Shown one piece after another: positions 30,401 through 47,603 of a DNA stretch of 64,000 nucleotides. The stretch lies in NCBI GenBank assembly GCA_022771695.1, contig JALEKJ010000020.1, positions 1 through 64,000 of the forward strand. The letters are read 5' to 3'. This DNA is from Roseburia sp. Lineage in GTDB: Bacteria; Bacillota; Clostridia; Lachnospirales; Lachnospiraceae. Made by a program: the position numbers and the translations under genes. Numbering within the stretch: the stretch's first letter is position 1; every line of letters starts with the position of its first letter. Below the pieces are notes generated by a model. The model searched no databases. It was given only the letters and a program-made list of their open reading frames with translations, and was not told where the DNA came from.

Positions 30401-33400
30401 GCGGAAATATCCGTATTGATTCTGTTGTACTTTCCGGTAGCCCGATTGTGGATGATAGCATTACAGGTTATGTAACCGTGACACCGGATGGCAAGGAGGA
30501 AGATCAGGCAGCAGGCACAGAGCTTACGATGGCGAGTGCAACTGCAGGAGCAGTGATTTCTTATCGCTTTGTTGATGCGGATGGCAACGGTGAGTGGAAG
30601 ACTTACGAGGAAGCAGCAAAGCCTGCATTGCCGGCAACATTGCCTGCAATTTTGGAGGTAAAAGCCTCTGCAGCGGGAAAAGCGGATAGTATTACCCGTA
30701 TATTTACCTATGCAGCAGGTTCCGTTTCACCGGTTAAGATGACGCCAAACGGTGGCGGTGTATACATCAGTGGTACTTCCGCAACTGTGACACTTTCCTG
30801 TGAGACACAGGGGGCAACGATTTATTACCAGTTGAACGGGGAGGGCGATTTTGTTCCGTACACAGAGCCGCTTGTGCTTGAAAAAGGTTTTGGAAAAACC
30901 GTAATCAAAGCATATGCCGTAAAGGAAGGATTTAAAGACAGTGCAGTCGTGACACGTACCTTTACGGAGCGCAGCAGCGAAACCTATAATATTTATTTTG
31001 GACAACTTCATTCCCATACCAGTTATTCGGATGGAGCTGGAAGTGCAGAAGATGCATACCAGCATGCGTCACAGGTAAAGAATTTGGATTTCCTGGCAGT
31101 TACGGATCACTCCAATTCTTTTGATAATGCAGACAGTGCTTCTATTTCCGATGGCTCTATGAGTACAGAATGGGTAGAAGGACACGCGCTTGCAGAGCAG
31201 TATACGACAGAAGATTTTGTTGGATTGTTCGGTTATGAGATGACCTGGTCAAACGGTCTTGGTCATATGAATACATTCAATACACCGGGATTCCAGAGCC
31301 GTACGCAGACAGAATATAAGACTTATGCGACAGCATTACAGAATTATTATGCAACATTAAAGACAGAGACAGATTCTATCAGCCAGTTTAATCACCCGGG
31401 TACTACCTTTGGTGATTTCAGTGATTTCGCTTACTATGATGAGGAAATTGATGAGCTGATTACGATTATTGAGGTTGGTAATGGTGAGGGAGCAATCGGT
31501 TCTTCCGGTTATTTCCCGTCTTACGAGTACTATACCCGTGCTTTGGATAAAGGATGGCATGTGGCTCCGACAAATAATCAGGATAACCACAAAGGATTGT
31601 GGGGAGATGCCAATACCGGACGAAGCGTTGTGTTGGCAGACAGCCTGTCAGAAGACGACATTTATGATGCTATGAGAAATTATCGTGTATATGCGACGGA
31701 GGACAACGATCTTTCCATTATGTATACGTTAGACGATAACATCATGGGAACCATCATGGATAAGAGTGACGTTGGGGATAATGTGACACTTAAAGTGGCA
31801 TTGACAGACCCGACAGACAGTTCCATTGGTAAAGTGGAAGTTATCGTAAATGGGGGTCTTAGCATTGCGTCAAAGAATGTTGCAACAGCAAGCGAGGTGG
31901 TGAACTTTACGGTTCCTTCGGATTATTCTTACTATTATATCCGAGTTACGGAAGCGGACGGTGATATTGCAGTAACGGCTCCGGTATGGGTCGGTGAGGT
32001 AGAAGCAGTCGGTATCTCGGGTCTGTCAACAAGTTCATCTCTTCCGGTTCAGAATCAGGCATTGGATTTGACACTTGATTTATATAATAATGAGTCAAAG
32101 GATTTGGAAATTGAAAGTATTGAGTTTACGGTTGACGATAAGGTAATTCATACAGCAGATTTGACAAATCTTACCAAGGTAGACAAAAAGAGCACAGCAT
32201 CTTATACTTTTAGCTATACACATGATGGTTTGGGGCAGACGAATATCAATGCGACTGTAAAAGCAAATCTGAACGGTGTAGAAAAGGTATACAAAGAAGT
32301 ATTGAAATTAACCTATGTTTCTCCTTCCATGGTATCGAAGGTAATTGTGGACGGAACACATTATAATGATTACGTAACCGGCTACTATGGCGGAAATATG
32401 GGCAACTTTACCGCAATTTCTGCGGACAAAATGGTAGAGGTAACCGTTGTAAAAGACGAGATTACAGAAGAAATGTTAAGCGACTGTGGTTTGCTTGTGA
32501 TTTCTGCACCGGCAAGAAAAGCAGGCACTGCGACTGCAGGAGAATATACGGCAAGTTCCTTTGAAGATTCCTTTATCGAGATGGTAAAGAAGTATGTGGA
32601 AAATGGCGGAAATGTTGTAATTTGCGGTCTTGCCGATTATCAGGATAAGGGAGCGTCGAGTGCGGACGGGCATGCTTCTGCACAGTTGAATAAGCTGCTT
32701 GCGGCTATTGGTTCTACTATGCGTATCAACGATGATGAGGTTTATGACCCGGTTAACAACGGCGGACAGTTTTATCGACTGTATCCTTCCGTGTTTAATA
32801 AGGACTCCAGATGGACATCCGGCATTGTGACGAGTGATGACAATCCGGATAATTACCAGACTTACAGCCAGTACTCCGGTTGTTCCGTTAATCCGGGTAA
32901 CGGTACTTGGCTAGTGAAAGGCTTTGATACCACTTATTCCGTGGATTCCGACAAGGATGGCGAGGGCAATACCAGTGAGGTGGAGACAGACGACAGTTAT
33001 GGCTATAATATCGTTGTTCCTAGAGGGGAAGTAGTTTTCCTGGCAAGTGAAGATACCGCTTATGGCGGAACCGTTTTTGCGGCAGGCGGTGTGTTCCTCT
33101 CTGACTTCGAGGTAAAGGCAGAACTCGACAATATCTGGGACCTTCCGTATGCAAACCGCACAATTGCAGAGAATATTTTGGATAGTATTCAGAAACAATT
33201 ACCTCTTTCTACAATTGCGCAGATGCGTGCAGGAAACTACAACGATGTATTTCGTATTCAGGGTTATGCGACAGCAGGACGTATCGAAGGAAATGCATTC
33301 TTTGATGCGATGTATATTCAGGATGAGACAGGCGGTATTACAGTATTCCCAATCGCAGAAGAGGGACTTAAAATTGGTACAAAGATGGAGATTGTAGGAT

Positions 33401-34698
33401 ATCTCGATCAGTATCAAGGTGATAAAGAAATCCAGATTATGTCTTATAAGATTCTGGATGAAGAACCATATGTGTATGCTCCGCAGAAGATGACAGCAGC
33501 AGAAGCTATGGATTATGACAAATCCGGTGGAAAGCTTGTCCGTATAGAGGGTAAGGTTGTGGATGTGCTGTACGATGCTGCAGGTACTGGTGTATCACAG
33601 TTCTGGATTGATGACGGAAGCGGAACAATCGGAAATGTATTCATTGATGGTTATATCTTATCTGCAACGACAGGTAAGAACGAATTGGCATCTATCGTAA
33701 AAGTAGGTGAGACTATTTCGGCAGTCGGTTTAGTATATGCACATCCGGAAGGAACCTCTGATATCCCGGTTACCTGTTTGAGAGTGCGTAACTGCGATGA
33801 AATCACAGCAGTGACACAGACAGGTGGAGATAATGGTGGAAATACTGACAGCGGAAATAACGACAGTGGAAGTACAAACATCTGGGGCTCAACAGTAGTG
33901 AACCCGGAACCAGATACAGCAAAGCCTGAGAGCAGTGGAAACAGGAACAAGCGCAATAATAAGAAAAACGCATACGCAGACAATGGGTTGCCAAAGAAGA
34001 ATAAAATCGTCGTAGAAAAAGAAGGCGATTGGAAAGCAGTTGCAGATTCCTTTGAGCAGATTGCAGATGGAGGTAAGATTTATCTGAATCTGGGCGATGA
34101 TACGATGCTGTCCGGTGGTGTCATTTCGTCAATGCGAGGTAAAGACATATACCTTGTAATCACACTTGAGAATGGTGTCGTATGGAGCATCTACGGAAAA
34201 GACATCGTGGAAGAAAAAATTGCGGATATGGATCTTGAGGTAGTATTACATACACACGAGATTCCGGAGGACCTGGTATCGTCTGTTGCCGGTGAAGGCT
34301 CCTCAATGCAGATGAGCTTGAAACATGATGGCACGTTTGGATTTAAGGCGTACCTGACAGTTAACGTAGGAGAAGAGTACGCAGATAGCCAGGCGAAACT
34401 GTATTATTATAATGAGGAATCCGGTGAATTGGAGCTTCAGTATACAGGAACGGTTGCGGCTGACGGTTCATTGGAGATGTTGTTTAGCCATGCATCAGAT
34501 TATGTCATTGTCCTCGAGCAGGTTGCATTGGCAGATGCGGATGCGGAGACTGAGGAAGCAGTAGACAGCGCAGAGACGACTGAAATAGAGGAACAGGAAG
34601 CTTCTATGAATATCGTTCCGATTGTAGTGATATTATTGCTGGTAGTAGCTGCAGTAGTGGCAGTGCTTTTCATTCGTAAGAAAAAGAGTGTGAAATAA
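27424..34698 (+). CDS. Giant multidomain surface protein: OB-fold repeats, chitobiase C-terminal-like domains, PHP (CehA/McbA-like) metallohydrolase, C-terminal TM
   Basis: Signal peptide; two ~170-aa repeats ('TIAEA+AA...V+GTVV.ID...+YVQDSTG.I+LYFS'); PHP 'YFGQLHSHTSYSDGAG...LAVTDHSNS...FNHPG...'; third OB at the C-terminal third; TM 'IVPIVVILLLVVAAVVAVLFIRKKKSVK'. Confidence 0.88.
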   Translation: MKRKHQLKSMLALILAFVMCISGMPTTVTAAETGGEPISYGQVTSVDDITSGGSFVLAVQTDSGYLALDKAVSGKTEGVGITVDNGVVTSADAPTWTIASCGSGVSLHDGTNYLSYSSSTNFSTASEPYEWTVTATESGGFQFVAAATSATSTVRAIFYRAGDIKKFAPYAASNVPPEYNSNILVFKAGAASGGGTGAQTCASVKASVTPGAVDAGTNVELSCTTEGATIYYNTDNSDTYLTYSSAINITEATTIRAYASKEGMNNSNVATFAYTIKVPATLMTIAEARAAAVNTENIMVQGTVVFIDSKNVYVQDSTGAINLYFSSAPSGLNVGDVIKATGKRASYKGLEQLSGVAAYDKVDTVSAPSTTVTIADINADASIGALECTRVYIENAIVGEKTGDNTPLIQGGSTINLYKAPEVAGMEAGATVSLYAVVSDFNGYQLRVTSASDVTVQADGVSTIAEAKAAATGTENITVRGTVVLIDGTNIYVQDSTGGIDLYFSTAPTDLQIGDIIKATGKRASYKGLEELSGVTSYEKVISVNAPSKKVTIADIIADQETGVLESTRVYIENAVIGAVNTSGNTTLTQGDATINIYKIPELANITEGATVSLYAVISDFNGYQLRVASASDVTKISDGTPDEPTPDDGTVKNGNYVIWASAYNKALSSEYNGFYNKGVDVSLTGTQLSGYTNAEIWTVTHNDDDTYYISYGGQNLAMAANFSSLTLGEVNDKWVLKDAGDGKYYVKNVGRNNYIEWYSKNSNWSGYSTISSGSEGMFALTFTPAVKGYNTDSSVVETIAQWGGGGPYDATANASVVNGDKYVAGDQKDAKASFSVVANGVAGQPYQQQSSGTGGYNYYMGGTNIGKAAGDYMQFAVDTAGYGAMSLSFRLRATNAGPGSFQLQYSTDNGATFENFTTGEYSYAYTKYINNEPSEVTGSGAITDGVAATSKAAAQYVSFKFDVPQGAENAEKLLIRLVAGTTRADGGTGAVSGNIRIDSVVLSGSPIVDDSITGYVTVTPDGKEEDQAAGTELTMASATAGAVISYRFVDADGNGEWKTYEEAAKPALPATLPAILEVKASAAGKADSITRIFTYAAGSVSPVKMTPNGGGVYISGTSATVTLSCETQGATIYYQLNGEGDFVPYTEPLVLEKGFGKTVIKAYAVKEGFKDSAVVTRTFTERSSETYNIYFGQLHSHTSYSDGAGSAEDAYQHASQVKNLDFLAVTDHSNSFDNADSASISDGSMSTEWVEGHALAEQYTTEDFVGLFGYEMTWSNGLGHMNTFNTPGFQSRTQTEYKTYATALQNYYATLKTETDSISQFNHPGTTFGDFSDFAYYDEEIDELITIIEVGNGEGAIGSSGYFPSYEYYTRALDKGWHVAPTNNQDNHKGLWGDANTGRSVVLADSLSEDDIYDAMRNYRVYATEDNDLSIMYTLDDNIMGTIMDKSDVGDNVTLKVALTDPTDSSIGKVEVIVNGGLSIASKNVATASEVVNFTVPSDYSYYYIRVTEADGDIAVTAPVWVGEVEAVGISGLSTSSSLPVQNQALDLTLDLYNNESKDLEIESIEFTVDDKVIHTADLTNLTKVDKKSTASYTFSYTHDGLGQTNINATVKANLNGVEKVYKEVLKLTYVSPSMVSKVIVDGTHYNDYVTGYYGGNMGNFTAISADKMVEVTVVKDEITEEMLSDCGLLVISAPARKAGTATAGEYTASSFEDSFIEMVKKYVENGGNVVICGLADYQDKGASSADGHASAQLNKLLAAIGSTMRINDDEVYDPVNNGGQFYRLYPSVFNKDSRWTSGIVTSDDNPDNYQTYSQYSGCSVNPGNGTWLVKGFDTTYSVDSDKDGEGNTSEVETDDSYGYNIVVPRGEVVFLASEDTAYGGTVFAAGGVFLSDFEVKAELDNIWDLPYANRTIAENILDSIQKQLPLSTIAQMRAGNYNDVFRIQGYATAGRIEGNAFFDAMYIQDETGGITVFPIAEEGLKIGTKMEIVGYLDQYQGDKEIQIMSYKILDEEPYVYAPQKMTAAEAMDYDKSGGKLVRIEGKVVDVLYDAAGTGVSQFWIDDGSGTIGNVFIDGYILSATTGKNELASIVKVGETISAVGLVYAHPEGTSDIPVTCLRVRNCDEITAVTQTGGDNGGNTDSGNNDSGSTNIWGSTVVNPEPDTAKPESSGNRNKRNNKKNAYADNGLPKKNKIVVEKEGDWKAVADSFEQIADGGKIYLNLGDDTMLSGGVISSMRGKDIYLVITLENGVVWSIYGKDIVEEKIADMDLEVVLHTHEIPEDLVSSVAGEGSSMQMSLKHDGTFGFKAYLTVNVGEEYADSQAKLYYYNEESGELELQYTGTVAADGSLEMLFSHASDYVIVLEQVALADADAETEEAVDSAETTEIEEQEASMNIVPIVVILLLVVAAVVAVLFIRKKKSVK

Positions 34699-35851: not shown

Positions 35852-37186
35852 TTATAATAAGACGATTTCACGTGTGTATTCACTGCGTGGAGTCGTCTTT
35901 TTTGCTGGATTTTGGGAGAGAACCTGGTCGTATAAATCGGCGGCAAAAATATCTTTTTCTAAAATTGACAGCGCTTCATTGGAAAGTACTGCAGAGGCAT
36001 CTGCAAGCTTGGAGATGACAGGTATGGCTGTACTTTTCTTCAATGTACCAAGCAGAGCTGAGGAGGTTCGTCGGAATCCTAAAATGCGCAGGTACGGAAC
36101 ATAATCCAGCTTTTTTCCATGCTGATAATCTGCATCCGTAATATCTAAGAGCAGATGTAACAGAATACGGCTGATACGGCTGTACGTAACATCACGGCTC
36201 TTATTTATAGCGCAGAATTTGGAAAAAGAAGAAAATTGATAGCGATTTTTTACAAAACGGTTTGCAATCTCTTCGCTGCAATCTGCAATACTTGCAAGTT
36301 TCTCTTTTTCCTGAATTAGGAGCAGATAACCAAGGATGGAAGAAAAGTCATCTGCCCATACGGCGGGTGCATTGCTCAGATACTCTGTGAGAACTGCGTG
36401 TGCAGATGCAGGCATAGTATGAGCAAGATTTGCGAGTTCGAGGGTATGGTCGTTTGCTGCAAGATGTTGTTCCGCCAATACGTTGCGTATCGCGGTGGCG
36501 GAAGCGGTTGGAGCACCGTAACAGGTATTCTTATGGTCGCGGGCTGCTTGAATCATCGTTTCATGATAGCCGGCACCTTCACGCTTGATTAAGTATGGGG
36601 TAAGTGAACTACCGCGCTTTCGGATTGCTTTTAGATACTCAACCGCAAGGATGTTATTTGGTTCATTCATTACAGCATCTAGCGTTTGGACAGTGTATTC
36701 GTTTGCAAATTTGGCAGAAATATGGTTGCCTGCGAGATAGTCGCAGACTGCCTTTGCCCGTGCTGCAGGAAACGAAGCACCTGCCTTTAAATAAGAGGAA
36801 AGTGCGTCTCGATATTCTTGTGGCTCTTCTGCGAGGAGGGAGGCAATTTGGGTAAGCAGAGGCAGGTTATCTGTCTCTGCACCAAAACAGATGCCATCCA
36901 CGCAGCCTATTTTCTCAAGCAGGGTGACTCCTGCCATGGCAAAGGATTCTGCGGAGGAGGTCGCCCAGAGGGCAGGAAGTTCGAGAACCAGGTCGGCTCC
37001 GCAAGAGAGGGCCATTTTGGTTCGCGCATACTTGTCAATGATGGCAGGAGTGCCGCGCTGTACAAAATCGCCACTCATTGCTACAACTACATAATCCGCA
37101 CTTGCTTTTTCGCGGATTCTTGCGATTTGATAGGCATGTCCGTTATGGAATGGATTGTATTCTGCGATAATGCCAATGACCTTCAT
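35852..37186 (-). CDS. tmcAL: tRNA(Met) cytidine acetate ligase-like nucleotidyltransferase
   Basis: 'GIIAEYNPFHNGHAYQI', 'VVAMSGDFVQRGTPAIIDKYARTKMAL'. Confidence 0.92.
   Translation of the reverse strand: MKVIGIIAEYNPFHNGHAYQIARIREKASADYVVVAMSGDFVQRGTPAIIDKYARTKMALSCGADLVLELPALWATSSAESFAMAGVTLLEKIGCVDGICFGAETDNLPLLTQIASLLAEEPQEYRDALSSYLKAGASFPAARAKAVCDYLAGNHISAKFANEYTVQTLDAVMNEPNNILAVEYLKAIRKRGSSLTPYLIKREGAGYHETMIQAARDHKNTCYGAPTASATAIRNVLAEQHLAANDHTLELANLAHTMPASAHAVLTEYLSNAPAVWADDFSSILGYLLLIQEKEKLASIADCSEEIANRFVKNRYQFSSFSKFCAINKSRDVTYSRISRILLHLLLDITDADYQHGKKLDYVPYLRILGFRRTSSALLGTLKKSTAIPVISKLADASAVLSNEALSILEKDIFAADLYDQVLSQNPAKKTTPRSEYTREIVLL
35859..35905 (+). terminator. Terminator hairpin located inside the tmcAL 3' coding end
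   Basis: AAGACGAtttCACG...CGTGgagTCGTCTTTTTT. Confidence 0.65.
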
Positions 37187-37365
37187 AAAACCTCCTGTTA
37201 GCTGTTGCGAAACGATATCATGTCGCTAAAATTATATATAGGATATGTTATCACATCTATAGGAATCTATGCAATGAAGTACAAATAAAAACTACAAATG
37301 TATTGCAGACAACAGAAATTTGTAGTAGAATGTGACTTGCTGTGCAAAAAAGAAGGGAGGTGAAT

Positions 37366-37551
37366 GTGGTGGAGCAGGTAATGAAGCATTATGGAAATGC
37401 TATTTTGGCGGCTGTAACTTTACTATTGCTTGGAGCGATTATCTATGCTGCATTGTCGGGAGACGGCTATGTGGCAGATCAGTTTGAAGCATCGTTGAAA
37501 GGATTTTTTGAGCAGATGAATACGGTTGCGGGTATGGCTTCAGCGTCATAG
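37366..37551 (+). CDS. Small single-TM pilin-like protein (Tad-like island, ORF a)
   Basis: GTG start with GGGAGG SD; VVEQVMKHYG|NAILAAVTLLLLGAIIYAALSGDGYVADQFEASLKGFFEQMNTVAGMASAS. Confidence 0.65.
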   Translation: MVEQVMKHYGNAILAAVTLLLLGAIIYAALSGDGYVADQFEASLKGFFEQMNTVAGMASAS

Positions 37552-37563
37552 TTGTTGAATTTG

Positions 37564-37588
37564 TCCCCCGGCGGTAATGCGTCGGGGA
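37564..37588 (+). other. Intergenic hairpin after ORF a (no U-tract)
   Basis: TCCCCcG gcggtaatgcgt CGGGGA. Confidence 0.6.
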
Positions 37589-37602
37589 AATTTGGAGGAT
37601 GC

Positions 37603-38667
37603 ATGAGTGAATTAATGAAATTTGAACCAACCCCGGAACAGTTTGGGGTTTTGTGGAAATATATTAGTAATCCGAATGTAACCGATGTTGATTATAATGG
37701 CTCAAAGCTTTGGATTACTGATTTTAAAAAAGGAAGATATGAGGCGGAGGAAACACTGACGGAACAGTTCATAAACTCATTTACGCATGTGATAGCAAAT
37801 TGTGTAAATAAGCAGTTTAATAATGCAAATAAAGTATTGGAAGCGGATACAAAGGAGTTGCGAATTAGTATTATTCACAATTCAGCGGCCGCCTCAGGAA
37901 TCAGCATATGTATACGAAAATCGCCATGTGTGATTCGTAACACAATGAAAGGAATGATAGAAGAGAATTATTGCTCCAAAGAAATTTTAAGTTTGCTGAT
38001 TAATTGTGTGTCAGCAAAGATGAATTTTGTTTTTTGCGGTGAGCCGGGGTGCGGTAAGACAGAATGCGCAAAATTTTTCATGCAGTTTATACCGAAGGAA
38101 GAGCGCGTGATTACGATTGAGGATTCGCTGGAAATTCATTATCCGGAAATCAATCCGGGAGCAGATGCGGTGGAATTGCGAATTGGAGCAGGCTTTAGCT
38201 ATACAGATGCAATCAAGGCATGCTTGCGGCAGAATCCCAAATGGTTGGTGCTGTCAGAGGCGAGATCGGTAGAAGTGACATCGTTACTGGAACAATGGAG
38301 TACGGGCGTCAACGGCTTTACGACAATTCATTTAGATGATCTTCGGAAGCTACCGGATCGAATTCAGAATATGATGGATAGTACATTTGATGCAGATAGA
38401 ATGGAGAATCGAATTTATCGGTATGTGAATGTGGGAATCTTGATTCGCAGGGTGGAAGAAGCAGATGGGAGGATGTGGAGATACATAGATCAGTTGTGCT
38501 TTTATAGCAGGGAAAACCAGAAAAATCGCATCTATATGATTGTCAAAGACGGCGAAGTGATTTCCAAGGAGCTGCCGGAGGGGATTCGGAAGAAAATGAA
38601 ATATGTGGGAATTGAAGATCCGTTTTGTTGTTGTAATTTTGCGAAATACATACAGGAAGGTAAATAG
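37603..38667 (+). CDS. CpaF/TadA-like secretion ATPase (T2SS/T4P/T4SS family)
   Basis: Walker A 'FCGEPGCGKTECAKFF', 'RVITIEDSLEIHYPEINPGADAVELR', 'LSEARSVEV'; SD TTTGGAGGATGC before ATG 37603. Confidence 0.88.
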   Translation: MSELMKFEPTPEQFGVLWKYISNPNVTDVDYNGSKLWITDFKKGRYEAEETLTEQFINSFTHVIANCVNKQFNNANKVLEADTKELRISIIHNSAAASGISICIRKSPCVIRNTMKGMIEENYCSKEILSLLINCVSAKMNFVFCGEPGCGKTECAKFFMQFIPKEERVITIEDSLEIHYPEINPGADAVELRIGAGFSYTDAIKACLRQNPKWLVLSEARSVEVTSLLEQWSTGVNGFTTIHLDDLRKLPDRIQNMMDSTFDADRMENRIYRYVNVGILIRRVEEADGRMWRYIDQLCFYSRENQKNRIYMIVKDGEVISKELPEGIRKKMKYVGIEDPFCCCNFAKYIQEGK

Positions 38668-38681
38668 AGGAGAGAATACAA

Positions 38682-40241
38682 ATGATAAAGATAGGAAAGG
38701 AAAAGAAGGAAAAAGGCATGTTTTGGAAATTATCACTGCTGAATCCGAAGAATCTGGCGCACGAAGTGCATGTTTACGGATATGACTTTTCATGGAAAAT
38801 ACATGTATTTTTGCTGTTGTGCTCTTTGATTGGAATTAGCGCAGTAGGCTTACTGTTTGAGCTAAAGCCGACATACTTTTTTTGTGTTATTGTGTGTGTG
38901 ATAATAGTACTTCCGATGCTTACTGTATTGTCATATAAACGAATGTATGAGCAGAAGCGTTTTTCCGATTTGGTAACCTATATGGAGCAGATGCTATATT
39001 CTTTTCAAAAAAGTGGGAAGATTAAGCTGGCATTGATGGAAACGAGAGAATTGTTTGATGAGGGCAGGATGCGTGCAGTTATTGACAGGGTAATTGACTA
39101 TCTGCAAAACGGAAATGCGAGAACGGAAAATGGTGTTTTGCGTGAAGCATTGGAAATTGTGGAAGAACATTATGAGTGCACGAAGCTTCGGACAGTACAT
39201 GAACTTTTGATTAGCAGTGAGGAATACGGCGGGGATGCGCAGGATTCCATCCGACTTGTTTTGAGTGACTTAGAATTATGGAAGCGTCGTGGATATAAAT
39301 TACAGGCAAGAAAAAAGGCAAGTCACACAGATAATATTATCTCCATTGCAGTGGCAACTGGTTTTTGTGCAGTCGCATTATATGTTTTAGATGCGATGAG
39401 GAATGTGTTCCCAAAAGCGACGGCAACCGGGTCTATTTTTCAGGTAGAGATGATACAGTTGTCCTCTCTGCTGTTTGTGCTGTATATGCTATACGTTTTG
39501 ACAAAAAGCCAGAATATGATGGCAATGAATTGGCTGCAATCGGAGAATCTACATAAAAAAGAGCTTATATTGGAGAGTTATAAGGCGGTGACAGACTATG
39601 ATGAGGCAAGAGAGAGGAAGAAAAGCCTATTGTGGTCCGTGCCTTTTTTTGTTGGAGCAATTATTGCATTTTGTTTTTCGCATCGATGGCTGGGTGTATG
39701 TATGGTTGCAATCAGTGTGTTTATGCTTTTCCAACATAAAATCGGATATAAACTGGCGCGAAAAGATGTGAATGAAGAATTGTATTTCGCGCTGCCACAA
39801 TGGTTTATGGAGATTGCATTGCTTTTGCAGAGTAATAATGTACAAGTGTCACTGGTAAAGTCGATGCAGGTGGCTCCGGCAATCTTGCAGGGGGAATTGC
39901 AACGCCTTATGGAACGATTGGAAAAGGCACCGGAACAATTAAAATCGTATGTTGATTTTTGCAAAGAGTTTGATGTACCGGAGGTAGAGAGCTGTATGAA
40001 GATGCTGCATGCGATGGCGGAATCTGGAACAGGAAATGCAAAAATCCAGCTTACCAATCTGGTGCGGCGTGTGAATGAGATGCAGGATATGGCGGATGGT
40101 ATTCGCGATGAGCATATGGCATTTAGAGCAAAAGCAATTTTTTCATATCCGATTTTTGCATGTACTGCAAAGCTGTTGGTTGATCTTTCGGTTGGAATGA
40201 TTTTTATGTTTCAAATGCTTGGCAACATGGGAGGTGTGTAG
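38682..40241 (+). CDS. Putative TadB-TadC fused T2SSF-like membrane platform protein
   Basis: Two halves each with a helical cytoplasmic region and TMs: 'FSDLVTYMEQMLYSFQKSGKIKLAL' and 'YFALPQWFMEIALLLQSNNVQVSLVKSMQVAP'. Confidence 0.7.
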   Translation: MIKIGKEKKEKGMFWKLSLLNPKNLAHEVHVYGYDFSWKIHVFLLLCSLIGISAVGLLFELKPTYFFCVIVCVIIVLPMLTVLSYKRMYEQKRFSDLVTYMEQMLYSFQKSGKIKLALMETRELFDEGRMRAVIDRVIDYLQNGNARTENGVLREALEIVEEHYECTKLRTVHELLISSEEYGGDAQDSIRLVLSDLELWKRRGYKLQARKKASHTDNIISIAVATGFCAVALYVLDAMRNVFPKATATGSIFQVEMIQLSSLLFVLYMLYVLTKSQNMMAMNWLQSENLHKKELILESYKAVTDYDEARERKKSLLWSVPFFVGAIIAFCFSHRWLGVCMVAISVFMLFQHKIGYKLARKDVNEELYFALPQWFMEIALLLQSNNVQVSLVKSMQVAPAILQGELQRLMERLEKAPEQLKSYVDFCKEFDVPEVESCMKMLHAMAESGTGNAKIQLTNLVRRVNEMQDMADGIRDEHMAFRAKAIFSYPIFACTAKLLVDLSVGMIFMFQMLGNMGGV

Positions 40242-40242
40242 G

Positions 40243-40578
40243 ATGAAAAATATTATTACTACCTATGGAATATTGCTTGTTCTGCTGTGTAATATCTTGA
40301 TATGTGTGCAGTTGGTAACTGCAAGTGGACAGGCGGCGGCAGCACGAGAATACAAGGCGGATGTGATTGCAGAGATCGAAAATAGTAACTTTAATCCGAA
40401 TGTGATTGAATCCTGTAAGAGGCAGGCTGCTACAGCAGGATATACGTTGGATGTACATGCATGTACCTATGATGAGATGGGAGATATACAGACGGCAGAG
40501 GTTATATTGGAGTATTCTTATGCAATGCCTATTTTTGGAATTTCAGATAAGAAAATGACAAGAGGGATTGCACGCTGA
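40243..40578 (+). CDS. Small pilin-like membrane-anchored protein (ORF b)
   Basis: MKNIITTYG|ILLVLLCNILICVQLVTASG...; ATG 40243 directly follows the platform gene stop. Confidence 0.7.
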   Translation: MKNIITTYGILLVLLCNILICVQLVTASGQAAAAREYKADVIAEIENSNFNPNVIESCKRQAATAGYTLDVHACTYDEMGDIQTAEVILEYSYAMPIFGISDKKMTRGIAR

Positions 40579-40595
40579 TAAGAAAGAGGAGAGAG

Positions 40596-40703
40596 ATGGA
40601 ACTTATAATAGAAGAAATTGGAGTCGCATTGTTAGGATTGGTGGCTGGCAGTGCTGTAATATATATGTTTATGCAACTTTTGGATTATGCGACTGCCTTT
40701 TAG
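40596..40703 (+). CDS. 35-aa pilin-like micro-protein (ORF c)
   Basis: MELIIEEIG|VALLGLVAGSAVIYMFMQLLDYATAF; SD AGAGGAGAG. Confidence 0.6.
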   Translation: MELIIEEIGVALLGLVAGSAVIYMFMQLLDYATAF

Positions 40704-40718
40704 TAATTTGGAGGATGT

Positions 40719-40865
40719 ATGAGAGAAATAGTAGAACATTTTGGCATTGGTTTTCTGGCTGCACTGGTAACGCTATCGATATTGGGAATGTATGTGTCGT
40801 TTTTGCATGAAGGTGGCGTTTTTTATACGACGACAGTCAACTTCATGAAGAGCATTTGCGGGTAG
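40719..40865 (+). CDS. 48-aa pilin-like micro-protein (ORF d)
   Basis: MREIVEHFG|IGFLAALVTLSILGMYVSFLHEGGVFYTTTVNFMKSICG; SD TTGGAGGATG. Confidence 0.65.
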   Translation: MREIVEHFGIGFLAALVTLSILGMYVSFLHEGGVFYTTTVNFMKSICG

Positions 40866-40872
40866 GGAGATT

Positions 40873-41346
40873 ATGGAGCAGATAATAAGAACTTATGGAA
40901 AAGTCCTTTTGGAAGGTGTTGTTGCCGCGTGGTTGCTCCTGCTTATCTTATCACAAATTAGAGATGGAGATGGAAATCGCGGCATATTTCAGATTGTAGG
41001 AGCACAAATTGGCAGTGAGAGCACTGACTATCGTGCATATACGGATTTTGATGTTTATGAGACAGATGCAAGCAAAGCACCGCCTGTCATCCGATATTTA
41101 GGTGAGAATCAGATACAGGTAGGAGAATGCTGTTTGTCGGATTATATAGAGGCAGAGAGTTGTTCGGGCACAAAGCTTCCAATAAAGATTGTAGAGGTCT
41201 TTGACCAAAGTGGTGCAGAGGTTGCCTGTGAAGAAGAGATGAGAGTTGTGTTTGCAGAAGCCGGAATTTATACGATAAAAGTACAGGCAATAGATGAAAG
41301 AAATAAAAGGACAGTACGCTTGATAAGGATTCCGGTCAATGAATAA
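40873..41346 (+). CDS. Pilin-like protein with C-terminal Ig-like domain (ORF e)
   Basis: MEQIIRTYG|KVLLEGVVAAWLLLLILSQI..., C-term '...YTIKVQAIDERNKRTVRLIRIPVNE'. Confidence 0.7.
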   Translation: MEQIIRTYGKVLLEGVVAAWLLLLILSQIRDGDGNRGIFQIVGAQIGSESTDYRAYTDFDVYETDASKAPPVIRYLGENQIQVGECCLSDYIEAESCSGTKLPIKIVEVFDQSGAEVACEEEMRVVFAEAGIYTIKVQAIDERNKRTVRLIRIPVNE

Positions 41347-41358
41347 AGGATAAAACAG

Positions 41359-41964
41359 ATGAAGAATATAGCGACAATGATAAGCAGTATCATATTAGGT
41401 GCCATTACATTGCTGATTGTAATGACCGTGCAGGGGCGAATGAACAGAAGTACGGAGTTAGAGAGCAACTTATCCTCTATAATAGAAGAAACAGTTGAAA
41501 TAATGACAGTGGATAAGAAATACGATATTGAGCACGCAGAAGAGTTTCTTGCTGACTTTCAGGAAAACTTAGCTGCTGCCATGTATAATGATGCAAATAT
41601 AAAAGTAAAAGTCCGAAATATGGATATGGAAAAAGGTCTGTTATCGATTTGTGCGATAGGAGAGTATACACATCCAAACGGGAAAAAGGGTACGGTAGCT
41701 TGTGAAAGAACTGTCATATTAGATAAGAAGGAAGCGCCGGAGTCAGAGATTTATACGGTACAGTTTTTTTACACAAAGGAGGATGCGAGCGCGGGTATCT
41801 GCTATAAAGTATATCAAGTGAGCTCGGGGGACACTGCGGGAATACCGGTAGCTCCAAATCTAGAAGGAAGGCAGTTTGTGGGATGGAAAGATGCAGATGG
41901 CAACAGGGTGGATTTTTCGGTTCCGGTGACACAAAATCAGATTTACTACGCCGAATGGAAATAA
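41359..41964 (+). CDS. Membrane-anchored protein with C-terminal InlB-type B-repeat (ORF f)
   Basis: N-terminal TM; C-term 'YKVYQVSSGDTAGIPVAPNLEGRQFVGWKDADGNRVDFSVPVTQNQIYYAEWK'. Confidence 0.75.
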   Translation: MKNIATMISSIILGAITLLIVMTVQGRMNRSTELESNLSSIIEETVEIMTVDKKYDIEHAEEFLADFQENLAAAMYNDANIKVKVRNMDMEKGLLSICAIGEYTHPNGKKGTVACERTVILDKKEAPESEIYTVQFFYTKEDASAGICYKVYQVSSGDTAGIPVAPNLEGRQFVGWKDADGNRVDFSVPVTQNQIYYAEWK

Positions 41965-42051
41965 ATGTAAAAAAGTAGTGGGAAAAACTATGGATATAGT
42001 GTATACTCGACTGGTGCGCTTGCACCAAGGATGAAAAAAGGAGATACGATT

Positions 42052-42870
42052 ATGAAAAATATGACATTAAAAACATTAGGAATCATGGTATTAACAGCTA
42101 CAATGCTTGCATCTACAGTGACAGGATGCGGTGACAAGGAAACAAGTGAGGGACAGGCTACAGAGGTTGTTGAAGCAGTAGTGGAAACAGAAGCGGTTGT
42201 GCCAGAGACAGAGGTGGTTGAGGAAGCCACTGAGGAAATTGTCGTGGAAGATACTGAGACAACGGAAGTAGAAGAGACAGAAGTGCAGGAAGGGGCAGAC
42301 TATACCGTTAAGGATATGTCCGCAACAAAGTATGCAAAGCAGAAGGTGAACGTCAGAAGTGGTGCATCTACGGATTATGAGCAGATTGGCTCTTTGAACG
42401 CAAATCAAAAGGTAACTGTAACGGGACAGGCTGATACGGGATGGTATCGCATTGACTATAACGGCAAAGAGGGCTATGTCAGTGATAAGTATCTGTCAGA
42501 CCAGAAGGTGACAGCAAGCACTTCTGCTACAACCACTACGCAGACAGTCACTACACAGAATCAGTCTACAGGCACAGCTACAGATACAGCGCAGAATCAG
42601 ACACAATCTGTAGATAACTCTGGTTCTACAGGAGATGCTTCTACAAGTGCACCTAGCACATCTACACCTAGTGCAGATACGGGTGCATCAACAACTACAC
42701 CAGATAATTCTACGAGTACGCCATCAACAGATACAGGTAGTGCAGGAACAGGCGGAGTGATTGACCCCAATACTGGAATGACAATACCAGAAGAAGCACT
42801 AGATTTTCCAGTATTTGACCCGTCCACGAACCCAGTAGATGATAGTCCGACTTTCGGTGGTATTTACTAA
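42052..42870 (+). CDS. SH3-domain lipoprotein with Thr/Ser-rich C-terminus
   Basis: Lipobox-like 'ASTVTGC'; 'KVNVRSGASTDYEQIGSLNANQKVTVTGQADTGWYRIDYNGKEGYVSDKYL' bacterial SH3. Confidence 0.82.
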   Translation: MKNMTLKTLGIMVLTATMLASTVTGCGDKETSEGQATEVVEAVVETEAVVPETEVVEEATEEIVVEDTETTEVEETEVQEGADYTVKDMSATKYAKQKVNVRSGASTDYEQIGSLNANQKVTVTGQADTGWYRIDYNGKEGYVSDKYLSDQKVTASTSATTTTQTVTTQNQSTGTATDTAQNQTQSVDNSGSTGDASTSAPSTSTPSADTGASTTTPDNSTSTPSTDTGSAGTGGVIDPNTGMTIPEEALDFPVFDPSTNPVDDSPTFGGIY

Positions 42871-42914
42871 TTTGATGCTTGTTGAAATGAAGAGTCAGAA
42901 TTAAGGTGGGGCAT

Positions 42915-45900
42915 ATGATTCGACCAAAGAATAAAAAAAACATATTTAAAGACATAAAAAGGCACATTATTTTAAGCCTATTCATGTGTATTGGAATCTT
43001 TACGCTTGATGCAAATACAGTAGGTGCTACTACTTGCGTGGAAGAAACAAAGATACCGATACTGGAAACAAGAGTAGGACGCTACAAACTGAATTATACG
43101 GGAAACACGAACCATTTTACAACATGGTATGAGAGCGGTGATGTGCAAGCGCAGTATATTTATGATGATGTTGGTGGTGCATATGAGAACAGTTCCAGTG
43201 CTTATCTAACAGCTCAGTCTGAAAATAGTGCGATTAAGCACGCTTTTTTGGTGTGGCAATCCAGAACTACGGAGAAAGAAGGATATGCTCCGATGGAAGC
43301 ACCCGTGGTATTTATTACACCAAATGGTGGAACATGGATTTCTCCCCAGTACATCATCAAGGATGACCGTGATAACTGGGATGGACATAATTACGATAAT
43401 TACGGAAGCATCTGCACTATGGTAACAGATGTTACAAGCATTGTGAAGCAATCTGGTTTCGGTAAATACTCTGTCTGCAACATTCCGATGTGGGAACCAT
43501 CTTCTGCAAGTATGGGCAATAGCGGAACATATCCCGCAGGAGAATCCCCCGGTTCTTGGCAGTTGGTAATCGTTGAGGAGAACAGGGATTTTAATGTCAG
43601 AGCTGTTTCACTATCTGTTACCAGTGAATTTCACTTGGCAACGGATTTTACGGGAAATTTGGTCTTGGAGAACGGTTTAAAGTCTACCACGACAGGAGAT
43701 GCAAACGGACAGTTCCTTTTTGGAATGGTGCGTTCCGATGAAACCGCATCCGTGACAGAATATATTAATACCAAGGACAGCCATGGAAATGTACTTGCGA
43801 ATGCACTTGGACAAACCATAAATAAAGCAGGTCTTTATCGGAATGGTGCGGTGCAAAATAACAGAGATAGCGCAAATGGTGGTGTGTGTGTTGATTTGTC
43901 CGATATTTCTAATATCGGTAGTGGAGCAACGTCGGCAGAACTGTATGTAAGGAATGATACCTTGTGGACGGCATTTACCATGTTGGGAGCGAGCTTTGAT
44001 ATTTCTTATCCAGATTTTGAAGGTATACAGACAACCACGGTAAATGATGATGTTACGGAAGTTACGGTTGAAGGTTCATTTAAGAACATTGCCATTCCTG
44101 CTGATACAGGTATCTATGATGGAAACCTTGAAATTATCGTAGACGAAGGATTGACACCGATAAGCGCGACTGCGAAAGTTAATGGAACACTTATAACAAC
44201 AGTACCAACTATCAATGGAAATGTCGTGAAATTCAGTGGCAGTGAAGTGCGAAACATGATGAATGGTGACGATATTAGCTATACGGTATTGTGTACTGTT
44301 AATAGCGCGGGAGCAATTAAGTACGAGAATGAAGCTCGATTTAACGGAAAGCTTCGCTCAGAAGGGGCAAATACAGGATATTGGGTAGACCAGATTTGGG
44401 TAGCTTCCTCTGAATGGGAGAGAGAAGTATATCAAATTACACTGAATAATCAAGGAGCAACGACAGCAGGAACATCTTGTTACTTTGAATGGTATAATCA
44501 TGGAAATTACACGACAGAAGGATGCATAAATGCGATAGATACCATTGTCGCGCCAACCAAGGACAATTATATCTTTGATGGCTACTTTACAGGTGCGAAT
44601 GGCACAGGCACAAAGTATGTGGATGCAGATGGAAGGATATTGTCGGATGCAACGACATTTACTGCTAATACAACATTATATGCATGTTGGATGCCGAAGA
44701 TATACAAGATAACACTTGACAATCAAGGGGCAGGTAGCGGTAAAGAAGGAACTCTTTGCTACTACGAGAAGTACGGTGTAGGAAATTATACGGATGAAGC
44801 ATGTACAACACCGATTACACAGATAATCTTGCCCGTAAAGGATGGCTATACATTTGAAGGTTATTGGACAAAAACAGGTGGAGATAGCGGTGGCGGAATT
44901 GTATGCATTACAACAGCAGGAATGGTAATGACGAGTTCCGCACTATTTACCGCAGATACAACCATCTATGCAGATTGGGAATCACAGATATTTACAATTA
45001 CCTGTGATAATCAAGGTGCGACATATGATGGTTCAACTAGATTTTATGAGCAATATACAACATGCTTCTATTATGATGAAATAGTGATGGCACAGGGAAC
45101 CACGTCATTAGATTATGGTTATACAGGTGGAGTACAATCTTTTATAGCACCTTACAACGGCACCTACTTTATAGATGTTTACGGAGCACAGGGCAGTAGT
45201 TGCTATGGACTTGGCGGATACGGTGGACGGTCCTATGGTGTTGTAACACTTGAACAGGGAGAATGCATCTATATCTATGTAGGTGGACAAGGAAGTGGAC
45301 AAGAGGGTGCCGGCTGGAACGGTGGCAGTGCAGGAGAGTCATGGCTATGGGGCGTAGGAGCCGGAGGCGGGGCAACAGATGTCAGACGTGGCAACACCGC
45401 ATTGGCGAACAGAATCATCGTAGCCGGAGGCGGTGGTGGCGGAGTCGCAACACCAAATAATGCAAATTCGGCGCAAGGCGGAGCCGGTGGTGGAACGACA
45501 TATCAGCCGGTAAATATTTTTGCTTTTGCCAGTGGGTATCAACCGCAAGACCCAAATGGATATTTTGGACCATTTGTAAATTCATACGATGGTTATGCCC
45601 CGGAATATGCTCCGGCTGGCGCAGGAACTGCGTCGGGACAAGGAGGCGGCGGTGGATACACCGGAGGACGGACGAAAGTAACCGTTACAGGCGGTGCGTA
45701 TAACATTATACCGGCTGGAGAGGGCGGAACAGGTTACATTGGTGGAGTGACAGCGGGCAATGTAGGTGGAACAAATTATGGTGTTGCATCCCTCGCAGGA
45801 CAGAAGACGGGGGATGGTCATGCGGTTATTACAAGAAGCAACTATACTACGAAAGTTACGCAAACAACGAAAATTACCCCTCCCCAAAAAGAAGGATACT

Positions 45901-47603
45901 ATTTTAGGGGATACTATACCGGAAAAAACGGAACTGGAGTAGCCGTTACAGATGCCAAGGGAAATATCTTAGTTGCCCCGGACTATTTTGCAGGAAACAC
46001 AACCGTATACGCACATTGGTCTACAAAGGCTGCAGCAGGCTACACCATTGTTTATGATGGAAATGGGGCGACAGAGGGAGCAATGCCATCGGTAACTGTT
46101 CCGCTTGACGCAAATTATGTTCTTAATAGAAATCTCTATGAGAGAATGGGATATACATTTGCAGGATGGTCATCGTCTCCGACAGGGAAGGTAGAGTTTG
46201 CGGATAAAGAAGTTGTATATAATCTGGTGAATGCAAATCAGACCAAAACGCTGTATGCAGTGTGGACTCCGATAAAATATACGATACGTTTTAATGGCAA
46301 CGGAGAAACAAGCGGAAGTATGCAAGATATGTTTTGTAACTATGGGAAAGAATATACATTGCCTCAACTTGAATATGAAAAGGTTGGATATCATTTTACA
46401 AAATGGACTACCAACCAAGACGGTACCGGTACGGAGTTTACAGATGGGCAATCTGTGAGCAGTCTGACTTCGATAGATGGAGCTATCGTTAATTTGTATG
46501 CACAATGGGAAGCAAACAGTTATACAATTATGTTTCATCCGAATGACGGAGGAGCGTTGATACATATTGAAGATGTAGTTGCGCAATATGGTACCGAAAT
46601 TGCGCTTCCGAATGGCGCGGACTTCTATGTAAAATATACTCTGAATGGTGAGAATGTAACCGATGCGGTGCTTTCGGGTGCACTCAGTATGCTTACGGGG
46701 GAAGAAACCGCAGAAGAGAGTGAAACACTTTTGGAGGAAGAGCTGTCTGTGGAGGAGAGTGAGACACTTTTAGAGGAAGAGATAGAGAATGTTCAAACGG
46801 TTGCAGAAGAGGAAAAGATAACTGCGCCAGCACAAAAGATATATCCGTCGTTTTTTGGGGGATGGGATTTAGAGGAAGGTAAAAACCGTGTGACACCGCA
46901 GTGGAATGTCGGCGAAGCGGCGGATGTCAGTGTACTGGCAGATGCAGCAGGAGTGACGAATCAGAATGGAGCAGTGATTATCTTATACGCGGTCTGGGAT
47001 GATTGCCCTTGGATTCAGGCGACAGACTTGTATTATACATTGGAACAGGCGCAGAGTGGTTATATTACGCAGGAGGAGATACTAAGCCATGCGACTGCCT
47101 CAGACCGGGAGGACGGCAGCCCGATTGCACCGGGATTTCATGAGAATGGTACATCCTTTTCTATTCCCGATTATTTGCCTGCCGATTTTACACAGTTTCA
47201 GAATGAGGGAAGCTCTACGGAAAATTTAACGGTGGTAGACAGCGCAGGAAATATGTATGTGAAGCAGATAACCGTCTATGTGGTAGATACGACACCGGTG
47301 GCGGTAGAACCGGAAGGGACAACGCGATTTATCAATGAGTACTATTATAATCAACCATATGAAAACGGTGGACTGGAAGAAAATTCAATCTGGCTGACGA
47401 ATCCAGAGTATGTTGCAGCAATGCAGGAAACGTTTGATAATATTCGCAATGACACCGCGATACAGACCTATTACTTTACGCATGAAGAAATCGAAGCGAT
47501 GAAAATGTATATCGCAGAGCATGGAATTGGAAATAGTAAAGAGACGGATGCACTCCAACAGTTCTACAATGAGTTTATGACAGGAAACGTTGTTCTTCAT
47601 TAA
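42915..47603 (+). CDS. Giant secreted B-repeat/glycine-rich protein (candidate adhesin)
   Basis: Signal peptide; multiple 'YTIxFxxNG...YAxW' B-repeats; Gly-rich block 'YGAQGSSCYGLGGYGG...AGGGGGGVATPN'; no LPXTG or C-terminal TM. Confidence 0.85.
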   Translation: MIRPKNKKNIFKDIKRHIILSLFMCIGIFTLDANTVGATTCVEETKIPILETRVGRYKLNYTGNTNHFTTWYESGDVQAQYIYDDVGGAYENSSSAYLTAQSENSAIKHAFLVWQSRTTEKEGYAPMEAPVVFITPNGGTWISPQYIIKDDRDNWDGHNYDNYGSICTMVTDVTSIVKQSGFGKYSVCNIPMWEPSSASMGNSGTYPAGESPGSWQLVIVEENRDFNVRAVSLSVTSEFHLATDFTGNLVLENGLKSTTTGDANGQFLFGMVRSDETASVTEYINTKDSHGNVLANALGQTINKAGLYRNGAVQNNRDSANGGVCVDLSDISNIGSGATSAELYVRNDTLWTAFTMLGASFDISYPDFEGIQTTTVNDDVTEVTVEGSFKNIAIPADTGIYDGNLEIIVDEGLTPISATAKVNGTLITTVPTINGNVVKFSGSEVRNMMNGDDISYTVLCTVNSAGAIKYENEARFNGKLRSEGANTGYWVDQIWVASSEWEREVYQITLNNQGATTAGTSCYFEWYNHGNYTTEGCINAIDTIVAPTKDNYIFDGYFTGANGTGTKYVDADGRILSDATTFTANTTLYACWMPKIYKITLDNQGAGSGKEGTLCYYEKYGVGNYTDEACTTPITQIILPVKDGYTFEGYWTKTGGDSGGGIVCITTAGMVMTSSALFTADTTIYADWESQIFTITCDNQGATYDGSTRFYEQYTTCFYYDEIVMAQGTTSLDYGYTGGVQSFIAPYNGTYFIDVYGAQGSSCYGLGGYGGRSYGVVTLEQGECIYIYVGGQGSGQEGAGWNGGSAGESWLWGVGAGGGATDVRRGNTALANRIIVAGGGGGGVATPNNANSAQGGAGGGTTYQPVNIFAFASGYQPQDPNGYFGPFVNSYDGYAPEYAPAGAGTASGQGGGGGYTGGRTKVTVTGGAYNIIPAGEGGTGYIGGVTAGNVGGTNYGVASLAGQKTGDGHAVITRSNYTTKVTQTTKITPPQKEGYYFRGYYTGKNGTGVAVTDAKGNILVAPDYFAGNTTVYAHWSTKAAAGYTIVYDGNGATEGAMPSVTVPLDANYVLNRNLYERMGYTFAGWSSSPTGKVEFADKEVVYNLVNANQTKTLYAVWTPIKYTIRFNGNGETSGSMQDMFCNYGKEYTLPQLEYEKVGYHFTKWTTNQDGTGTEFTDGQSVSSLTSIDGAIVNLYAQWEANSYTIMFHPNDGGALIHIEDVVAQYGTEIALPNGADFYVKYTLNGENVTDAVLSGALSMLTGEETAEESETLLEEELSVEESETLLEEEIENVQTVAEEEKITAPAQKIYPSFFGGWDLEEGKNRVTPQWNVGEAADVSVLADAAGVTNQNGAVIILYAVWDDCPWIQATDLYYTLEQAQSGYITQEEILSHATASDREDGSPIAPGFHENGTSFSIPDYLPADFTQFQNEGSSTENLTVVDSAGNMYVKQITVYVVDTTPVAVEPEGTTRFINEYYYNQPYENGGLEENSIWLTNPEYVAAMQETFDNIRNDTAIQTYYFTHEEIEAMKMYIAEHGIGNSKETDALQQFYNEFMTGNVVLH

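Follow-up and report, generated by a model that had tools for sequence, protein, structure and literature searches.

The island at 37366–47603 of the window (the whole 64,000-nucleotide stretch of Roseburia DNA under analysis) is a real, conserved module that is almost confined to gut Lachnospiraceae. On our best reading of its sequence, it would belong to the type IV filament superfamily as a new variant, which the tests applied place outside the Tad group. It carries a secretion-type motor ATPase, a platform protein in which TadB-like and TadC-like halves appear to be fused, and a set of very small membrane proteins, and we consider it probable, if by no means assured, that this machine builds a pilus or pseudopilus, very short in either case, on which adhesion domains are displayed.

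Results

Organization of the island

The island is formed by ten co-directional ORFs (Table 1) that encode a CpaF/VirB11-type ATPase, a platform protein, six small single-TM proteins, an SH3 lipoprotein and a secreted B-repeat protein. Intergenic gaps measure 1–51 nt as far as p201, and 87 and 44 nt thereafter. The flanking genes, which we take from sequence recognition to be tmcAL (35852–37186, minus strand), ackA (47709) and other housekeeping genes, delimit the cluster on both sides. The preliminary description had listed the same genes, co-oriented and with short gaps, and all of them were found; its 'five or six' small TM proteins are six, with the correction that two of them are only 35 and 48 aa long.

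Table 1. Features of the island, with refined start positions (an ATG in the case of the ATPase)
Feature	Position in window	Strand	Evidence
ORF A, 61 aa, single TM, candidate major (micro)pilin, weakly Flp-like	37366..37551	+	43 conserved matches in related loci; hhalign vs Flp
Motor ATPase, CpaF/VirB11-type, 354 aa	37603..38667	+	Pfam T2SSE, PDB profile matches, tree
Platform membrane protein, 519 aa, TadB-like and TadC-like halves fused	38682..40241	+	hhalign; Pfam T2SSF weak
p111, minor-pilin-like, occupies DUF4320 position	40243..40578	+	AF2; weak profile match to plasmid DUF4320
p35, single-TM micro-protein, 35 aa	40596..40703	+	Aligned in 29 loci; codon-position test; homology to A, p48, p157 N-terminus
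p48, single-TM micro-protein, 48 aa	40719..40865	+	Aligned in 26 loci; hhalign with A 96.7%; codon-position test
p157, pilin-like N-terminus and Ig/PKD-like domain (residues about 72–156)	40873..41346	+	hhalign with A 94%; AF2; Foldseek
p201, TM helix, alpha/beta part, C-terminal InlB-type B-repeat; DUF5411 role	41359..41964	+	Pfam Flg_new; weak DUF5411 match
SH3-domain lipoprotein, lipobox TVTGC, accessory	42052..42870	+	SH3_3 1.5e-17
Giant secreted protein, 1562 aa, B-repeats and Gly-rich domain, optional accessory adhesin or substrate	42915..47603	+	Flg_new 4e-23, ALK_LTK_GRD 8e-19

HMM searches, which the preliminary description had proposed, recognized the ATPase through T2SSE and the platform weakly through T2SSF, but returned no match to Peptidase_A24, Flp or RcpC/CpaB among the cluster proteins. 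With the exception of p201, the remaining small proteins gave no convincing family in Pfam/NCBIfam profile searches; no canonical TadE/F/G was recognized in the island, and no TadZ at the window copy. The locus thus has neither the TadV nor the RcpC/CpaB of Tad systems. The earlier statement that TadV, Flp, TadZ and RcpC/CpaB are not visible therefore stands for the window cluster by profile, but a pilin candidate can be seen in ORF A, which is weakly Flp-like by profile.

Conservation and genomic site

The gene order of the module (A, ATPase, platform, p111, a 32–38 aa protein, a 44–57 aa protein, p157 family, p201 family) recurs in about 40 related loci, often with a large secreted protein after the p201 family. 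The ATPase is present in 31 of 36 same-genus genomes, with 36–78% identity. The platform was found in 41 of the 298 genomes sampled from the family Lachnospiraceae (45 matches at E <= 0.001, four of which, near 1e-4, were set aside), in 27/392 genomes of the order sample, all 27 from Lachnospiraceae, in 4/388 of the class sample and in 1/398 of the phylum sample; each of these samples includes the source genome itself. A scan of named genomes with the ATPase alignment as query identified Lachnobacterium bovis (strain DSM 14045, locus L084), Pseudobutyrivibrio and Roseburia/Agathobacter MAGs as carriers. Matches to the island ATPase in a phage collection are mostly unannotated faecal contigs; two contigs deposited as 'Bacteriophage sp.', MT837507.1 and MT835474.1, whose ATPases share 53% and 43% identity with it, are possibly chromosomal contamination.

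The small ORFs carry a coding signature, codon position 3 holding 51–57% of orthologue mismatches in every small family, p35 and p48 included. The preliminary description had made its proposal depend on the conservation of these ORFs in relatives, which is borne out by gene order in dozens of loci, by a conserved glycine (G9, see below) and by the codon-position bias.

In relatives the module is usually bordered by what are, presumably, tlyC, guaB and hisA-like genes and, on the other side, by rarA/aminotransferase or degV (likewise named by sequence recognition), and neither tmcAL nor ackA adjoins it in any of 49 related loci. The core-gene setting described between tmcAL and ackA is thus true here but particular to the source genome, most relatives having the arrangement rarA/degV ... 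tlyC–guaB. The same genome holds a second module copy (L009; contig C21, 128500–141220), whose ATPase is 73% identical to that of the window copy and which is preceded by a 187-aa protein not present at the window copy. Since the C21 copy has degV, as in the common arrangement, we infer that its position is ancestral and that the window copy is derived. The source genome also carries a canonical Tad locus, split over contigs C29 and C30, with a Flp pilin and prepilin peptidases, as well as a T4P locus on C21.

Motor ATPase and platform protein

The ATPase, a secretion-type motor of the kind found in the type IV filament superfamily, matches T2SSE (2e-16) and, among PDB profiles, VirB11, GspE-like and CpaF proteins; its Walker A motif is intact (GEPGCGKTE) and the catalytic motifs are conserved. 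In a tree of 42 sequences, the island ATPases form one clade (support 100/100) whose sister is a group of four VirB11-like ATPases of pLS20-type plasmids (99/96), and the next branch outward is the ATPase of a Tad-like Parageobacillus plasmid (97/88). TadA, CpaF, VirB11 and TrbB lie on the other side of the tree (94/92, a fork that is not firm), and, because of long branches, the deepest placements are less secure. Profile scores agree with the tree, with 175–191 bits for the four plasmid ATPases, 90–130 for clostridial TadA, 83 for CpaF and 53–78 for VirB11. The island ATPase thus falls outside the sampled TadA/CpaF clade. Its identification as VirB11, the best NCBIfam match, was set aside after tree placement. 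We note that the Parageobacillus plasmid locus (L119; NZ_CP063416.1, 26055–38663), whose ATPase branches just outside the clade of island and pLS20-type sequences, encodes CpaB, a TadZ-type ATPase, the motor, two platform proteins and DUF4320, with an adjoining TrbL-family gene.

As a single sequence the platform matches Pfam T2SSF weakly (E 0.045), and 8 of 25 relatives match, at best with 4e-4. Profile–profile comparison with hhalign identified it as a platform protein of the superfamily: the N half matches the first plasmid T2SSF-like protein at 95.6% and TadB at 89.9%, the C half matches the second plasmid T2SSF-like protein at 97.2%, and the match to TadC is weak (48%). On these profiles, the platform is a TadB–TadC-like fusion, a single protein in place of the separate TadB and TadC of Tad systems. 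TadB and TadC are reported to have arisen by fission of a two-domain ancestor (PMC6668835, PMC10191384).

Small membrane proteins

Homology links ORF A, p35, p48 and the N-terminal part of p157 with one another (hhalign 58–97%); all four have the short segment M-x-x-I-x-x-x-Y/F-G, followed by a TM helix. The glycine (G9) is present in 38/43 sequences of ORF A, 28/39 of p35, 22/33 of p48 and 22/30 of p157, and is invariant in the p35 alignment of 29 loci. The residue at +5 from this glycine in ORF A is alanine or threonine in most cases and glutamate in none of the 40 sequences with a scorable glycine; in p157 it is E/D in 7 of 26 scorable sequences. Of the prepilin motif (G-1, E/D at +5), the small proteins thus keep the glycine, while the acidic residue is absent in ORF A and rare elsewhere.

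When compared to canonical Flp, ORF A yielded an hhalign score of 20.0 and a probability of 10%, the shuffled-null maximum being 10.7, which is suggestive of a distant kinship but not proof. Flp_Fap matched none of 33 members, and membership by Pfam was rejected; the E5/Y6 of Flp pilins is not found in ORF A. L082 and L092 each have tandem copies of ORF A, and the pLS20-type plasmid pBatNRS213 carries two identical 47-aa TM ORFs; both duplications would suit a major subunit. Homology between ORF A and the plasmid 47-aa proteins was also considered and rejected, as a single HMM match of 8.6 bits was not confirmed by hhalign.

The structure prediction called for in the preliminary description gave folds for p111 and p157. 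The AF2 model of p111 (pLDDT 88) has a long helix (residues 2–47), a second helix (52–64) and a three-stranded sheet, and this predicted helix with an alpha/beta head resembles a small pilin in its overall layout; Foldseek, however, found no significant PDB match for it. The Ig/PKD-like domain of p157 is modelled with a pLDDT of about 90 and matches PKD domains in Foldseek (best E 9.7e-4). The B-repeat of p201 (Flg_new 3e-5) is seen in 9 of 29 relatives. Matches of p111 to plasmid DUF4320 proteins (44%) and of p201 to plasmid DUF5411 proteins (38%) are weak.

Accessory and neighbouring proteins

B-repeat proteins come after many module copies, but not all, and a large secreted protein is absent next to the module in L048, L049, L053, L073 and L076. 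The large secreted protein of L046 starts with a subtilase domain (Peptidase_S8 4e-21), and the N-terminus of its L077 counterpart is similar by eye. No LPXTG was seen in the giant protein of the island. The giant protein is thus an optional accessory: its earlier designation as a possible tip adhesin or substrate is retained as a candidate role (accessory adhesin or cargo), but it is missing from several otherwise intact loci. Lipoproteins similar to the SH3 lipoprotein accompany the C21 copy, L051 and L052.

Upstream partners vary by clade, being either a 187–227 aa protein, which precedes the C21 copy and its clade, or a soluble protein that contains a signalling domain of the MCP type. The former is a possible TadZ counterpart; its identity is unproven because it rests on motif resemblance and a profile score close to the null (22.3 for the C21 protein against a null maximum of 19.8). 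In other clades, proteins of ~310–390 aa with similar coiled-coil sequence lie upstream of the island (L057, L059, L062, L063, L066, L068, L070 and L093), and all four that were scanned (L057, L059, L066 and L068) contain the MCP domain, with E values from 5e-27 to 1e-29, which suggests chemosensory control. Elsewhere in the window (27424–34698), a 2424-aa secreted protein adjoins a YibE/F-like membrane protein; judged from its sequence, the stretch FGQLHSHTSYSDG of the large protein resembles a PHP-type phosphoesterase domain.

Comparison with known systems

The closest relatives of the island are modules of pLS20-type plasmids (pBatNRS213, pZB18 and a Virgibacillus plasmid), with the order adhesin, DUF5411, VirB11-like ATPase, two T2SSF-like proteins, DUF4320 and a TM protein of about 47 aa. 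The two have a similar part list and order and an adhesin-type gene adjoining the module, and the plasmid ATPases are the closest to that of the island (TadA/CpaF taken together score 83–130 bits). In contrast, the plasmids continue with a coupling protein and other transfer genes, their platform is split in two, and homology of their small TM proteins to ORF A is not convincing. Neither a VirD4-like coupling protein nor other transfer genes were found among the cluster proteins, which are flanked by tmcAL, ackA and housekeeping genes. In passages of the pLS20 literature, VirB11 is treated as part of a T4SS, and Gram-positive conjugation systems are described as seemingly without pili (PMC8092201, PMC11730352); efficient conjugation of pLS20 requires its adhesin, Tie (PMC8092201).

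The Tad (T4cP) pilus, and with it the canonical loci of this genus, resembles the island in its CpaF/TadA-type ATPase, its TadB/TadC-like halves and its small single-TM pilin candidates; the island differs by the absence of TadV, RcpC, Flp with E5/Y6 and canonical TadE/F/G, by its fused platform and by an ATPase that lies in another clade. Passages of Imam et al. 2011 (PMC3244431) describe a few clostridial tad-like loci in which, as in the island, a prepilin signal is not apparent in any protein; tadV, tadZ, tadC and rcpC are reported there, unlike in the island, which has none of these as recognizable separate genes. The Com pilus is likewise a minimal monoderm filament with an ATPase, one platform protein and small pilins, but the ComGA model scores 50 on the island against a cut-off of 300, and no ComG-type pilin family matched the small proteins. 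A term-based search of open-licence papers returned no earlier description of the module in the text available to it.

No prepilin peptidase was matched in the cluster, the A24 matches of the genome being on other contigs. Peptidase_A24 was found in 67/67 island genomes searched and also in 39/39 genomes without the island; since the peptidase is equally present in the latter, co-occurrence is uninformative as a sign of sharing. The small proteins may be cut at G9 in trans by a peptidase encoded elsewhere, which co-occurrence does not support, or may enter the machine uncut; passages of one paper indicate that prepilin peptidases are sometimes common to several systems (PMC6668835).

Discussion

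The module, its lineage, its motor and its platform are solid. The preliminary description had proposed a stripped-down surface appendage or secretion machine of monoderm Clostridia, and a divergent, minimal machine of type IV filament kind is indeed what the data point to, but not a Tad system with lost parts: the genome has separate Tad and T4P loci, and the ATPase groups with the pLS20 type. An alignment of the island with a canonical Tad locus whose missing parts lie nearby was not seen, and the 'missing' parts were not lost from the island, because canonical Tad parts belong to a separate locus of the same genome.

We infer that the small proteins polymerize and that the product is adhesive, with some subunits at its tip. 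The ATPase would drive the single fused platform protein, which would extract the small TM proteins from the membrane and stack them up, giving a pilus or pseudopilus that is very short. The likely main subunit would be ORF A, with p35 and p48 as related micro-subunits and p111, p157 and p201 as minor, probably tip, subunits, p157 displaying its Ig/PKD-like domain and p201 its B-repeat; the lipoprotein and the large B-repeat protein, where present, may be accessory adhesins or cargo. This proposal is supported by the T2SSE and CpaF/VirB11-type matches, the fused platform, the shared N-termini, an A–Flp score twice the shuffled-null maximum, the predicted folds of p111 and p157 and the gene order, and further by the tandem copies of ORF A, the plasmid 47-aa duplication, the plasmid combination of ATPase, two platform halves and adhesin-type gene, and the role of Tie in conjugation. 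Counted against it are the lack of E5 in ORF A, of a prepilin peptidase in the cluster and of a PDB match for p111, the weakness of the A–Flp similarity and the unconvincing comparison of the plasmid 47-aa proteins to ORF A.

The same parts could form a T2SS-like device, whose short pseudopilus, never a real pilus, would act as a piston and drive the large B-repeat protein, or other secreted proteins, across the thick wall. Subunits this small would fit a short piston, and many copies are followed by a large signal-peptide protein, which in most cases has B-repeats and in one case a subtilase domain; nevertheless, a secreted protein of a monoderm could use Sec, rendering a pump unnecessary, and the copies in L048, L049, L053 and L073 are complete with no such protein adjoining them, so that we regard this device as unlikely. 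Less likely still is an ordinary, fast-evolving Tad locus that borrows its peptidase from the cell's own canonical Tad locus. The ubiquity of the peptidase in island genomes, its occasional use by several systems (in passages of PMC6668835) and the weakly Flp-like ORF A speak for it, but the peptidase is as frequent where the island is absent, the ATPase is placed outside the TadA clade as sampled, E5 is lacking, a fused protein serves as platform, and none of canonical TadE/F/G, TadZ and RcpC was recognized in the window cluster.

The sister relationship of the ATPases to those of the plasmids, and the similar order of ATPase, two platform halves, DUF4320 and small TM proteins, could also be explained by a chromosomal remnant of a pLS20-type Gram-positive conjugative element, kept by chance. 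Yet no relaxase, coupling protein or VirB4 was recognized in or beside the cluster, the ORFs are intact, conserved and under coding constraint, and the position at tlyC–guaB has long been shared by many genomes, all of which renders a remnant very improbable. A filament machine of its own kind remains our preferred reading, and a bolder version of it, which we put forward tentatively and hold to be rather doubtful, is that of a separate type IV filament branch, common to Lachnospiraceae chromosomes and pLS20-type plasmids, that polymerizes subunits of 35–61 aa without the usual prepilin processing and that on plasmids would constitute an unrecognized mating pilus or pseudopilus.

Should a filament indeed be built by the island, it would rank with the smallest type IV machines, its subunits being as small as 35 aa, and would provide abundant gut Clostridia with a new means of adhesion. 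The relationship of the ATPases suggests, in addition, that the pLS20-type 'VirB11' acts as a filament motor together with two platform proteins, and the statement, made in passages of PMC8092201 and PMC11730352, that Gram-positive conjugation systems apparently have no pili becomes directly testable in Bacillus subtilis.
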